Part shown: in pieces, positions 3,139 through 13,316 of the stretch
How positions within the stretch are numbered: position 1 is the first letter of the stretch
How the letters are laid out: each line of letters opens with the position of its first letter
Source: a virus
Strand: one strand, 5' to 3'
IMG/VR virus record: IMGVR_UViG_3300009159_000376
Location: 1-21,613 of that record
DNA: 21,613 nt
Notes under the pieces: generated by a model
Database searches by the model: none
Told to the model about the DNA's origin: nothing
The model's input: only the letters and a program-made list of their open reading frames with translations
Position numbers and translations under genes: made by a program

Positions 3139-4011
3139 ATGCGAATAGAATCTTACCAATTATTTTCACAGTTGCTTGAAGGCTATCTCAACGAGGCCAG
3201 CACCAGTCTCAATTTGATCCTAGACAATCCCGGCGGCAAGCAGGTGGTCACACATCTTCACACAGACATGGGCCTTGCACATGATCAGGATTATCGACAA
3301 GTAGAAAAGATATCATGGAGTGAACTCAAAGACGCCAGAAGAGGTGCCTGGGTTATAATCAAAGGTACCACGGGCACAGGAGCTATCCGTGCTACAGCCA
3401 GCGGCACGTATGAAGCCACTGCCAGCACAGGCGGCGACGTTGACACTGTCGCAGACAGTCGCGGTGGCAACATCATAGACTTCCTAAAATCTAAAATAGG
3501 AAAACTACAGAAATTCTACGTAGGAAACAACACTTCAACCGTGCGTGACAAACAAAAGAAACGTGCAGATCAACAAGCAGGTACAGGTGGTTCAGATGTC
3601 ACAGTTGATACACTAACAAAGAAGTTTAAACCGTTATGGGTCAAAGCCATTACTGCTGCTATCGCAGATGTCAAAGGACATATCGCTAATCAGATCAAGA
3701 ACGATGCCTTTGACAAAGCTGCCAAGAAACTAGAACATGTGAAAAAACTGCAATCTGCCATTGAATCGTTGGAAGCAGATTCTGATGCACCCAACTCAGT
3801 TAAATCTGCAATCAATGTTGCCGTATTAATGGCAGCTAGTCATCATTATCCAGAACAGACTGGCGCTATTCAACGCGGCGGATATAGTGGTGGGTATAAT
3901 GCACAGCGTTCAGAAGGTGGTAGTCAACTACTGAAAGATATCGCAGGCGGCGATCAGAAAAAACTCAGCACAGTGCTGACATTCTTTAAAAGGAGTTTGA
4001 TCTCAGGATGA
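3139..4011 (+). CDS. Probable internal head protein, function unknown
   Basis: A 290-residue protein. I chose the ATG at 3139 rather than the in-frame ATG at 3070, which lies inside the nuclease gene, because a late promoter ends just before 3139 and no ribosome-binding site serves 3070. The N-terminus, MRIESYQLFSQLLEGYLNEA, contains two L-x-E sites followed by G or A, resembling the T4 capsid-targeting peptide and prohead protease sites. The middle is rich in Gly, Thr and Ala (GTTGTGAIRATASGTYEA), followed by a Lys-rich helical segment and a Gly/Tyr-rich stretch (RGGYSGGYNAQRS). No enzyme family is recognised. The stop overlaps the next start (ATGA), indicating translational coupling with the following gene. 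Confidence 0.7.
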   Translation: MRIESYQLFSQLLEGYLNEASTSLNLILDNPGGKQVVTHLHTDMGLAHDQDYRQVEKISWSELKDARRGAWVIIKGTTGTGAIRATASGTYEATASTGGDVDTVADSRGGNIIDFLKSKIGKLQKFYVGNNTSTVRDKQKKRADQQAGTGGSDVTVDTLTKKFKPLWVKAITAAIADVKGHIANQIKNDAFDKAAKKLEHVKKLQSAIESLEADSDAPNSVKSAINVAVLMAASHHYPEQTGAIQRGGYSGGYNAQRSEGGSQLLKDIAGGDQKKLSTVLTFFKRSLISG

Positions 4012-5135
4012 AACTCAATCAAATAGTTCTCGAAGCCAACGTCGCGGCCAAACTCAAAGATCCCAAGATGGTCAAGATGTTGAGCATAGCCATGCGCCAT
4101 GACAGCAGCTTGCCCAAAGATCGTGTGGCTAAACTAGGACCAAAACCTTCAGATGAAGAAGTAGTTCAACTATGGAGCGATCTCTTAGACAGCAGTCTCA
4201 GCAGCACAGACTATGGCGACCTTTCCACTGACGGCAAGTTTGATGAATGGTTGACTCGCATGTACATCAACGGCGTGGCTGACTACGAAGACATCAACGG
4301 TGAAGGCGGGGATGCGCTGGGCGCCTGGAAAGCATTGAGCATACGCGGCAAACTAGCCGAACCACATCAAGACTTCAACAAGTTTAAAAATCTGCGTCAG
4401 ATTCAACAGATTGTTCAGAGCCGTGATTATCGTGATGAGCTGAGAAGAATCAAAGACGCAGAAGTTGTTGAAAAACACAAACGTGAAAAGAAAGAAACCA
4501 CACTCATAGACAATGAACGTTTCTTGATCACTCTACCCTATAACTATGGCGCCTGTTATAACTTCAACAATGCTCACGGTTATAATGCAAGTTTCTGCAC
4601 AGGATCAAGTTCAGGACAGCGTTGGTTTGAAAGATATGCTCCAGAAGGTCCAATCATTTCTATCTTCGATAAACAAAATCAAGAAGATGAAAACGGCAAA
4701 TGGCAGATGCATGCTCCAACAGGACAAATGAACAACGGTAATCAAAGTCTAAGCTATGCCCGAGGCGATCAAAAGTTTGCCGAATTGTTTCCTGGGCTAA
4801 TGAAAGAGATCATTGATGCTGTAAAATCCAATGCCGAAGAAATCAAAACCAATTCCGTGGACATTGTTCGTGGGGGATATGATGTTAATGCAGTTGTCGC
4901 TGAAATTAAATCTAAATTGCCTGCTTCATATGCTTCAGAAAAAGAAAAGCCAGAAGAACCAGAAGCAGAAGATGATGCCAATGACGGTCCTGGGACCTAT
5001 GTTGTTACACAAACCGCATCAGGCAAAACTGCTCGTATCCAAGGCGAAAACCGTCAAGACATTGTTGCCAAGTTAATAGCTAGATATCCAGATAGTACAG
5101 AAGCAGATTATACCATCGAGAAAGCACAGGAATAA
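4008..5135 (+). CDS. Uncharacterised 375-residue phage protein, capsid-targeting-like N-terminus
   Basis: It starts in an ATGA overlap with the preceding gene. The N-terminus MKLNQIVLEA resembles the T4 internal-protein leader (MKTYQEFIAEA), with a potential prohead-protease site after E9. Residues about 170-250 form the most conserved-looking block, with a Cys, Trp and Gly pattern (YNYGACYNFNN, FCTGSSSGQRWFERY, GPIISIFDK). This recalls a block common in marine phage proteins of the type W/FCT...YF-Y...GPLYxIxDK, whose role is unknown to me. An acidic linker (EKPEEPEAEDDANDG) leads to a small C-terminal domain. It probably works with its coupled partner, possibly as a packaged internal protein. 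Confidence 0.7.
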   Translation: MKLNQIVLEANVAAKLKDPKMVKMLSIAMRHDSSLPKDRVAKLGPKPSDEEVVQLWSDLLDSSLSSTDYGDLSTDGKFDEWLTRMYINGVADYEDINGEGGDALGAWKALSIRGKLAEPHQDFNKFKNLRQIQQIVQSRDYRDELRRIKDAEVVEKHKREKKETTLIDNERFLITLPYNYGACYNFNNAHGYNASFCTGSSSGQRWFERYAPEGPIISIFDKQNQEDENGKWQMHAPTGQMNNGNQSLSYARGDQKFAELFPGLMKEIIDAVKSNAEEIKTNSVDIVRGGYDVNAVVAEIKSKLPASYASEKEKPEEPEAEDDANDGPGTYVVTQTASGKTARIQGENRQDIVAKLIARYPDSTEADYTIEKAQE

Positions 5136-10987: not shown

Positions 10988-11039
10988 ATAATTGCGGATG
11001 ACAACAGTGAGAAAATCCTGTAAAATAGATTATATTTGA

Positions 11040-11047
11040 AGTAAATA
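11040..11047 (+). promoter_or_regulatory. T4-type late promoter abutting an ATG
   Basis: AGTAAATACACA is followed by the ATG at 11052, leaving 4 bases. The expected mRNA start falls on the start codon. It drives the three-gene operon 11052-13277. Confidence 0.6.
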
Positions 11048-11051
11048 CACA

Positions 11052-11330
11052 ATGAAACTGAAAACCAGATCGATACTACAGGAACTCAACGAAGTAGCTG
11101 AAATCCGCAACAAGGATGAGCTGTTTGAAAGCCGTGCCACTAATATCATCAATTCAGCTATTAATCTGCTGGAAACGCTGAAAAAACACTATACAGCGGA
11201 ACAAGCAGATGAGCTAGAACGCAGACTGCTGAATGCTATCCGTGGGCAAGATCCTGCCAAATTCACACGGGGCATACGCAAGATCGCAGAATCAAAAAGA
11301 ACCAAGAGACCGTTAGATGAATCACAGTAA
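11052..11330 (+). CDS. Small phage protein, capsid-targeting-like N-terminus
   Basis: A 92-residue, charged, mostly helical protein. The N-terminus MKLKTRSILQELNEVAE has L-x-E sites like those cut by T4 prohead protease. The remainder (TNIINSAINLLETLKKHY, ADELERRLLNAIRGQDPAKF, RGIRKIAESKR) is typical of short proteins seen before nucleotidyltransferase-like genes in marine T4-like phages; its role is unknown. It is the first gene of a tight operon: its end overlaps the next start by 14 bases. A structural or adaptor role for the two downstream enzymes is possible. Confidence 0.7.
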   Translation: MKLKTRSILQELNEVAEIRNKDELFESRATNIINSAINLLETLKKHYTAEQADELERRLLNAIRGQDPAKFTRGIRKIAESKRTKRPLDESQ

Positions 11331-12183
11331 ACTACTAGAAGGCGGCAATGTATTCAAAACTGCTGACAAGCAGAGTTTGACTCAGCGCATTGCTACCAAA
11401 GATGTGCCAGCCACTGTTGACTTTCTTGAAAAGATTACTGGCTTAGACTTTACCCAAGAACTAGATCCAGATGATAAAAAACCTGTGAAATGGTTAGGCA
11501 CCACAGGACGTAAGGAAGATCCTGACGGTACATTTGATCTCAACAGTTCCGGTGATCTAGACCTCAGTGTTGATGCTAGAGAGATTACCAAAGAAGAACT
11601 AATTGCAAAACTGGTAGATTGGTGCAGAACAAACGGTGTTGAAGAAGAGGATATCTTCAACAAAGGCATGAAAAAAACCGACGGTTGGATCAAAGACGCA
11701 GGTGATAATGTTCATTTTAGAACTCCTATACTAGGAGATCAAACCAACGGCTTTGGACAAACTGATTTTATGCTGACAGTCAATCCCAAATTTCAACAAG
11801 GATCTATGATTGGCGGCAAAGGGCAATATCGTGGAGAGCATAGACACATAGTTCTCAGCAGCATTGCTCGTGGGCGAGGAATGAAATATTCACCTAAGTT
11901 TGGACTGCTTCACGGGGACACCAACGAACCTGTAGAAAATGGCGATGACTGGAATGTCATTGCAAAACAACTGTTAGGTCAAACAGCAACAGTCAGAGAC
12001 GTTAAGAGTGTAGATGCTATCATTGCCTACATTATGAAACTGCCTAACTATGACGAACTGGTTGCAGGTGCCAGAGAAACACTGGGCAAGATGGGCATCG
12101 AACTGCCTGTTAAAGAAGCATTTGAAAGCTACGTACCCGGAAGTAATGCGTGGATGCGTAAAATGATTAATATTGTAAAATGA
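11317..12183 (+). CDS. Nucleotidyltransferase-like protein
   Basis: A 288-residue protein with a pattern like the Pol-beta-type nucleotidyltransferase core: WLGTTGRK at 59-66 (the glycine loop), SGDLDLSVD at 78-86 (D80, D82 as metal ligands) and QTDFML with D150 as a possible third carboxylate. The family is known to me from marine T4-like phages, always with an N-terminal LEGGNVF motif, here at residues 7-13. Whether it adds nucleotides to tRNA, protein or antibiotics cannot be told. The distance between the glycine loop and D-x-D is longer than in minimal nucleotidyltransferases, so the assignment is moderate. It is coupled on both sides: 14-base overlap with the upstream gene and ATGA with the downstream one. 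Confidence 0.65.
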   Translation: MNHSKLLEGGNVFKTADKQSLTQRIATKDVPATVDFLEKITGLDFTQELDPDDKKPVKWLGTTGRKEDPDGTFDLNSSGDLDLSVDAREITKEELIAKLVDWCRTNGVEEEDIFNKGMKKTDGWIKDAGDNVHFRTPILGDQTNGFGQTDFMLTVNPKFQQGSMIGGKGQYRGEHRHIVLSSIARGRGMKYSPKFGLLHGDTNEPVENGDDWNVIAKQLLGQTATVRDVKSVDAIIAYIMKLPNYDELVAGARETLGKMGIELPVKEAFESYVPGSNAWMRKMINIVK

Positions 12184-13277
12184 GATACTGGGAACTGCTA
12201 TTAGAAGATGAAGCTCCTCCTGCTAAGAAAGTAGGCAGAGAATTCAACCACCTTGAAGACAAGGTGTTTGTAGAAACTAATGGTGCACTTAAAGTTATAC
12301 AAGCCCTAAAAGCTATAGCCAAACCCGAAACCAGCATCACAATCAAATGGGATGGCAATCCCACGGTGTATTGGGGACGTGATGACGACGGCACATTCCG
12401 CATGGTGGGCAAGAACAACTGGGGACGTGAAGAAGGCAAGAGTTCTAGTCCAGATGAATTGAAATCATTTATTATGAGTCGTGGCAAGGGCGAAGACTGG
12501 CGACCCAAGTTTGCCAGCGATATGGCAGCACTGTGGCCTGTGTTCGAAGCAGCCACTCCCAAAGACTTCCGTGGCTATGTCTATGGCGATATCTTATTCC
12601 ATCCAGGCAAGCCCTACGAAGGCGCAGATGGTAAAATTAATTTTACCCCAAATCAAACCACTTACAGTGTTAGTGTTAAAAGTCCCTACTATCAGAAATT
12701 AATCAAGGCAGAAGTAGCAGTGGCCGCTCATAAACAGTTCGAATACTTTGGTGATACCTCTGGCGAAGACTTTGCCAATCCAGAAAAGTTTTCAACAACT
12801 CCGGAACTGGCAGTATTTGGCTTGACCGCAGTTAGTTATAGACCAGCAGTTGGCGCAGAGAATCTTGCAAAAATCGAAGCATTGGCTAAAAATCAACAGG
12901 CAATCGATAATTTATTAGCACCTGTTACAGGCATGGGCTACTTACGCGATGAGATTTACAAATTTGTTAATACCCAGTCAAAAGCCAAACAATTAGACAA
13001 CATCAACACCGATGCTTTCCTAGCCTTTGAACAAAAGACCCCTGTAAAAGCAGCTAAGATAAAAGCTCACAGTGAACGTCATCCCAAAGTGATGGACACG
13101 ATGTTTGAGCTAGTTCGTGAGATTATGGCAGCTAAAGACGAAGTCATTCGTGAACTTGACGCATCAGGCGGTGATATAGAGCAAAACACCAAAGGCAAAC
13201 CCGGTGGCGAGGGCTATATCATAGGCGGCGACAAATATGTGCCACGTGATCGTTGGACTCCATTTAGAGCTGATTAA
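12180..13277 (+). CDS. Ligase-like (KxDG) protein, DUF6267-type
   Basis: A 365-residue protein that I recognise as similar to the DUF6267 group of T4-like phages. ITIKWDGNP (53-61) contains K-W-D-G like motif I of ATP-dependent DNA/RNA ligases, where Lys (K56) is adenylated. YVYGDILF (133-140) and INFTPNQTTYSV (153-164) fit later nucleotide-binding motifs. The C-terminal half is helical and ends KYVPRDRWTPFRAD. Ligase activity is inferred from motifs only. The N-terminus MRYWELLLEDE resembles a capsid-targeting peptide, so the enzyme may be packaged. It is translated from an ATGA overlap with the nucleotidyltransferase-like gene, implying that the two work together, perhaps in nucleic-acid repair or end modification. 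Confidence 0.72.
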   Translation: MRYWELLLEDEAPPAKKVGREFNHLEDKVFVETNGALKVIQALKAIAKPETSITIKWDGNPTVYWGRDDDGTFRMVGKNNWGREEGKSSSPDELKSFIMSRGKGEDWRPKFASDMAALWPVFEAATPKDFRGYVYGDILFHPGKPYEGADGKINFTPNQTTYSVSVKSPYYQKLIKAEVAVAAHKQFEYFGDTSGEDFANPEKFSTTPELAVFGLTAVSYRPAVGAENLAKIEALAKNQQAIDNLLAPVTGMGYLRDEIYKFVNTQSKAKQLDNINTDAFLAFEQKTPVKAAKIKAHSERHPKVMDTMFELVREIMAAKDEVIRELDASGGDIEQNTKGKPGGEGYIIGGDKYVPRDRWTPFRAD

Positions 13278-13308: not shown

Positions 13309-13316
13309 TATAAATA
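13309..13316 (+). promoter_or_regulatory. Canonical T4 late promoter (TATAAATA)
   Basis: AATATAAATACTTG carries the full TATAAATA. The leader to the ATG at 13390 is about 68 bases and folds into two hairpins. This promoter, a good ribosome-binding site and a strong terminator enclose a single gene. Confidence 0.82.

Follow-up and report, generated by a model that had tools for sequence, protein, structure and literature searches.

A polymerase with a Polβ-type core partnered with a ligase is known from large DNA viruses, the giant-virus precedent being the PgV PolX fusion (PMC5537341). Jumbo phages show another described pattern, in which RlaP (PF10127), a nucleotidyltransferase of the Polβ superfamily, co-occurs with the RNA ligases Rnl1/Rnl2 (PMC7824862); for that system, no head leaders have been described. 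Bacteriophage T4 loads foreign proteins into its heads by means of an N-terminal capsid-targeting sequence (CTS) of about 10 residues, and gp21 cuts after [LI]xE (PMC9026906). IPI-IPIII and Alt of T4 carry such a short leader ending in [LI]xE (in the IPII record, the 10 residues MKTYQEFIAE|A) and are ejected with the DNA (PMC9026906); this cargo comprises a nuclease inhibitor and an ADP-ribosyltransferase, and none of it is a polymerase or ligase. In the open-access library searched, no description was found of a polymerase-ligase pair, a PolX, or a ligase packaged in a phage head. Finally, DUF6267 (PF19782, phrog_455) is a family of marine cyanomyoviruses, and of the large-phage relatives discussed here, to which no function has been assigned.

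The locus considered here lies in a 21,613-nt stretch of DNA, positions 1 to 21,613 of IMG/VR record IMGVR_UViG_3300009159_000376. This stretch, referred to below as the window, is a ~21.6-kb fragment of a phage genome. Gene A (11052..11330, + strand) encodes a small helical protein of 92 residues that belongs to phrog_11854, virion structural protein (E 1.9e-17); gene B (11317..12183, +) encodes a 288-residue minimal family X-like polymerase with palm and thumb; and gene C (12180..13277, +) encodes a 365-residue, ligase-like covalent nucleotidyltransferase of the DUF6267 family. We propose, with a probability of about 0.5, that A-B-C specifies a capsid-loaded polymerase and ligase cargo for repairing the nucleic acid that enters the cell, probably the DNA of the phage. 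Unlike the cargo of T4, B and C would thus be a polymerase and a ligase. The giant-virus pair, of which AsfvPolX and AsfvLIG recur among the structural matches of B and C, respectively, differs in that B and C are encoded by two separate phage genes, coupled in translation and provided with leaders of capsid-targeting type, and in that C is a DUF6267 protein with no OB fold; the likeness is known from structures rather than from sequence.

The three open reading frames overlap by 14 bases (A/B) and by 4 bases (B/C, a shared ATGA), just as the first-pass annotation of this DNA had described them. Homologues of all three, in the order A-B-C, occur together in 200 of 216 related viral loci. These loci were gathered with B and C, and the other 16 are mostly short or end-of-contig pieces. 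Because the three are kept together in this way, A, B and C are taken to be real genes. The B/C overlap is again 4 bases in 74 non-redundant loci, and the A/B overlap is 8, 11, 14, 17, or 20 bases in 103 non-redundant loci, a variation that follows the length of the B start. Apparent B/C gaps of 89-104 bases mostly arise where C has a longer leader and scripted gene calling misses its true start, and all six of the inspected loci of this kind overlap by 4 bases. A-B-C is a translationally coupled gene set, probably of a large T4-like phage.

The same annotation had placed the set behind one late promoter. A single TATAAATA promoter ahead of A is rejected: on the + strand between 10900 and 11052 there is no copy of TATAAATA with 0 or 1 mismatch. 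Exact copies in the window, at 13309 (+) and 10960 (-), each lie before other genes, and their number is not above chance. What precedes A instead is a σ70-like promoter (10998..11026, +; ATGACA, 17 nt, TAAAAT), together with a GTAAATAC box (11041..11048, +), the T4-late-like TAAATA element of this phage, 11 nt before the ATG of A. Regions 5' of 67 non-redundant homologues have on average 2.8 mismatches to the σ70 consensus, compared with 3.7 in shuffled sequence and 3.5 in the lowest of 50 shuffles. A.TAAATA. box is present no more than 45 nt upstream of about 10 of the 26 window genes, where 0.7 would be expected; such boxes precede the genes at 2682, 3139, 5915, 6126, 11052, 13933, 14780, 15237, and 18791. 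Judged by this placement, the box is probably the late promoter element of the phage. Since A also has a σ70-like promoter, expression of the set may not be late only.

Protein B is best read as a predicted minimal family X-type polymerase that has neither a lyase nor a fingers domain. Its AlphaFold2 model, built with 59 homologues, has a pLDDT of 90.7, and the best PDB matches of the model are the PolX enzymes Polβ, λ, and μ, with AsfvPolX lower in the list. The superposition (VIA-align Z 9.9, 162 aligned residues, 3.3 Å) covers residues 141-335 of Polβ, that is, palm and thumb. A profile of B and its distant homologues, when compared with 12 bacterial PolX sequences, reaches a score of 39.6, where 40 column shuffles give at most 20.5; the alignment superposes the G-[ST] turn, the GDLD, the third of the aspartates, and the signature of the thumb. 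The active-site region G61-T-T-G ... S78-G-D80-L-D82 (11497..11565, +) contains the GTTG...DLDL remarked on in the first-pass annotation, here as GTTG...SGDLDL, and it is invariant or nearly so. The third catalytic Asp is predicted, by the PolX profile alignment and by conservation, to be D150 (GQTDFM; 11764..11766, +). D80, D82, and D150 are invariant in 63/63 sequences, and the D-x-D residues stay constant in homologues down to ~22% identity. Together, model and alignments leave the fold class and catalytic residues of B well supported, and they sharpen the original guess of a nucleotidyltransferase to a PolX-like one.

No Pfam or PHROG family matched B, and among its 59 homologues there was no Pfam match either to the DNA_pol_B palm/thumb or to RlaP (PF10127). 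Searching the PDB by sequence, with profiles of B and of C, returned nothing relevant, and no cellular relative of B was found in the genome contigs searched. PolX sequences taken one at a time give no match to B, and the ranking of PolX over RlaP rests mainly on the fold, the thumb, and the PolX profile. Against phage RlaP, the B profile scores at background (hhalign 0.4%), but the method is weak here, as PolX against RlaP is equally at background. Profile searches lend no support to B as a member of RlaP.

Protein C matches DUF6267 with 62.6 bits (E 5.6e-17; the curated cut-off is 27 bits), as do 59/59 of its homologues. The residues K56-W-D-G, P61, G66, D137, E344, G345, K352, and R356 are invariant in 61/61 sequences, two cyanophages included, and R67 has two exceptions among the 61. 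These invariant residues succeed one another as motifs I, III, IV, and V do in ligases. Motif I is K56-W-D-G (12345..12356, +), the KWDG singled out by the first reading of this DNA; a motif III-like D137 (GDILF; 12588..12590, +), picked out by conservation, has D in place of the usual E; and motifs IV (G343-E344-G345-Y) and V (K352...R356) lie at 13206..13247 (+). K56, like the D-x-D of B, is constant down to ~22% identity. Among the PDB matches listed for the model of C (pLDDT 87.4), nearly all are ligases, namely LigIV, Naegleria RNA ligase, T4 Rnl2, REL1, tRNA ligases, and AsfvLIG, with each match weak (best Z 5.8, Foldseek E 0.025). The ligase fold that had been guessed for C is suggested at the level of superfamily by these weak matches; the low scores may be due to a large helical insert that the model places between motifs III and IV. 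Neither C nor its homologues match PF01068 (ATP-dependent DNA ligase) or PF09414 (RNA_ligase) in Pfam. The hhalign comparison of C with phage DNA and RNA ligases is uninformative, known ligase families failing the same test with one another. Taken from motif order and model, C is predicted to be a covalent ligase of the DNA/RNA ligase superfamily, which would be the function of DUF6267; support for this is less than for B. The unit of two nucleotidyl-transfer folds for end repair or modification that was suggested at the outset is supported in this form, PolX-like for B and DUF6267 for C. Both large relatives with the cassette, of 353 kb and 280 kb, carry a separate gp30-type DNA ligase (PF01068). 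Consequently, C appears to be an extra ligase, and a role as the replicative one is unlikely.

Homologues of A adjoin the gp41-type helicase in PA5oct, RaK2, CBB, Atu_ph07, Phosso, and Vibrio phage 2.275.O. Outside the closer relatives, PA5oct, Atu_ph07, and Phosso encode an A homologue and, no more than a few genes later, a KxDG protein and a B homologue. For B this homology is firm (hhalign probability 97-99%), the distant versions carrying GSxGK...[ST]GDIDx, and the KxDG proteins resemble C at the level of motifs only (hhalign probability 23%). Just downstream of the B homologue of Atu_ph07 are three paralogues, gp061-063 (L155:9603-12219), which have the leader-like starts MRLFQLLE, MRWHQLIE, and MKWHQLTE; by eye they look like ADP-ribosyltransferases, and no Pfam family matched them. 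Among contigs of cellular genomes, relatives of C were found on three, all from metagenome-assembled genomes (MAGs), and these contigs are probably phage. One of them, a 335-kb contig (L249) in a Neomarinimicrobiota MAG, has A-B-C with leaders LNE|GG and LTE|A and probably represents a jumbo phage that was binned along with the bacterium.

C ends 13 residues past the motif V lysine and lacks the OB-fold domain (motif VI) that a DNA ligase should have. Therefore, its anatomy does not decide between DNA and RNA as the substrate, and the leading alternative takes the substrate to be RNA. In such a system, B would restore nucleotides of a cleaved tRNA or other RNA and C would reseal it, countering host anticodon nucleases in the manner of RlaP and Rnl1/Rnl2; on this reading, too, injection of the proteins is possible. 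Polβ-type nucleotidyltransferase and RNA ligase pairs are, as noted above, a described jumbo-phage pattern, and the missing OB fold and the best VIA matches of C, which are RNA ligases (the Naegleria enzyme, Rnl2, and REL1), point the same way. In addition, the KLDG neighbour in Atu_ph07 matches Pfam RNA_ligase below threshold (E 0.002 and 9.8e-4), and neither RlaP nor Pfam RNA_ligase is present in the large relatives, leaving a role that B and C could fill. Against this stand the palm and thumb of B, which match PolX, and its background score with RlaP; the separate RlaP and RNA ligases that Atu_ph07 and similar relatives carry besides; and the 21.6-kb window, in which no tRNA gene was found. 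RNA repair is thus a possible but unlikely account of the pair. Compared with RlaP plus Rnl1/Rnl2, B is closer to PolX and C falls outside the Pfam family of RNA ligases.

Head-leader-like N-termini, the other feature stressed in the first-pass annotation, are indeed present on all three proteins. A starts with MKLKTRSILQE|LNE (from 11052, +), and LQE, ILE, or LDE stands at positions 10-11 in 71/76 of its homologues. The B leader, MNHSKLLE|GG (11317..11340, +), places [LI]xE before GG; 103 of 107 distinct homologues have [LI]xE at positions 5-10, typically directly before GG, and the leaderless homologues of Atu_ph07 and Phosso start with MGG, at the predicted cut point. The capsid-targeting-like C leader, MRYWELLLE|D (12180..12206, +), contains L7-x-E9. 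E9 of [LI]xE is kept in 83/108 homologues, and relatives show leaders such as MRAFEFLTE|A and MRFWEILTE|A. The versions on A and B are shorter or less typical than that of C; where a B leader has only 5-8 residues, it is short for a CTS, which counts against the head-cargo reading. Across the window, [LI]xE is found at 21% of N-termini and 7% internally, a modest excess overall, and it arises by chance in ~4-14% of internal segments. Because the window-wide excess is only modest, the case for leaders rests on their conservation in A, B, and C.

The leader also behaves as a portable cassette. About 18 C homologues (L002, L009, L108, L173, and others) have a Cys module of ~35 residues (KWSxKYKSSINCSNPKGFSQKAHCAGRKKNES) directly behind an LTE leader, and the leader plus Cys module is reused on one unrelated 136-residue protein (L180:2466-2876). 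Cyanophages S-SM2, Bellamy, and P-TIM68 carry the Cys module as well.

Virion proteomics and protease genes bear on whether such leaders serve head loading. A gp21-type prohead protease (PF03420) is encoded by both large relatives with the cassette, a further likeness to the T4 type of cargo. The mass spectrometry records come from distant homologues, of A in CBB and of B in PA5oct. CBB_292, an A homologue, was detected in purified CBB virions by 1 unique peptide only (PMC5259590). The PA5oct B homologue, EST35_0231, is entered as a virion protein on ESI-MS/MS evidence; it has no [LI]xE leader, which again counts against the head-cargo reading, and its KIDG neighbour is not reported as detected in the virion. 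The head packaging first proposed for this DNA is backed by the leaders, the proteases in relatives, and the virion records of A and B homologues, and from these we infer packaging in the present phage. Packaging in the head is thus supported indirectly.

The next alternative is that B and C are ordinary intracellular enzymes, acting on DNA under replication or packaging in the cell that makes them, with N-termini that resemble leaders but are translation-start or regulatory features rather than CTSs. The chance frequency of [LI]xE, the shortness of the B leader, and the σ70-like promoter ahead of A would all fit. So would the cyanophages S-CAM3 and P-TIM40, in which DUF6267, with the same KWDG ... 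EG ... K motifs as C, lies near the replication gene gp41, has no leader, and adjoins a gene for a HIGH-type cytidylyltransferase rather than a PolX. It is harder to explain in this way why three adjacent genes should all carry the motif, with E9 of C so often retained, why A and B homologues are recorded in virions, and why the leader cassette recurs on another protein. We regard a purely intracellular role as rather improbable. A third alternative, that B and C are catalytically altered or structural virion proteins that keep old enzyme folds for scaffolding, DNA condensation, or end protection, might accommodate the PA5oct virion record and the weak fold scores of C, but is highly improbable given that the catalytic residues of both enzymes are invariant to ~22% identity, which is unexpected for dead folds.

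In the preferred reading, that of a head-loaded cargo for gap filling and sealing, A would be a small virion protein made along with B and C. The N-terminal leaders would steer all three into the prohead core, where a gp21-type protease would cut after [LI]xE to leave free enzymes inside the capsid. B and C could then enter the next cell with the phage genome. There, before phage gene expression, B would fill gaps by adding nucleotides to 3' ends and C would seal nicks, the most likely target being the phage DNA that has just arrived; the damage might stem from packaging or ejection or from cuts by host nucleases, or the task might be end joining. An extra ligase with a head tag, in phages whose relatives own a gp30-type enzyme, suggests a job that is done before the phage makes its own enzymes. 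Leader cleavage, catalysis, and the DNA substrate are, like packaging, what we infer for this phage. The wider proposal, of a packaged PolX-like branch and a DUF6267 ligase family that repair or end-join the arriving genome and are addressed by swappable leader cassettes, is put forward tentatively, as somewhat short of an even chance.

This analysis gives DUF6267 a function that can be tested, and B defines a Polβ-type family that as yet has no Pfam or PHROG model. If B and C are packaged, repair of the phage genome would start at injection, which would be relevant to the survival of large phage genomes in the face of ejection damage and of early attack by nucleases, and the pair, if the reading is true, would be a bacteriophage counterpart of PolX and ligase repair in giant viruses. 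A short, portable leader for head loading would also aid the prediction of ejected effectors in metagenomic phages.

Several further observations concern genes around these families. No DNA ligase of PF01068 or PF01653 was found in the S-CAM3 (L223) and P-TIM40 (L224) genomes, and the DUF6267 protein near gp41 could, from its motifs, be the ligase that they are missing. phrog_455 spans both DUF6267 and the HIGH-type cytidylyltransferase, implying that the two are fused in some phages, and the cytidylyltransferase that follows DUF6267 in P-TIM40 (L224:6168-7241) has a leader-like start of its own, MRFLDFIKE|A. Two genes adjoining KxDG genes (L151:9460-10479 and L224:4148-4927) matched no family and resemble PD-(D/E)XK nucleases by eye. 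Within the window, a 375-residue open reading frame at 4008-5135, likewise outside the families searched, begins with the leader-like MKLNQIVLE|A and may, judging by that start, be further head cargo.
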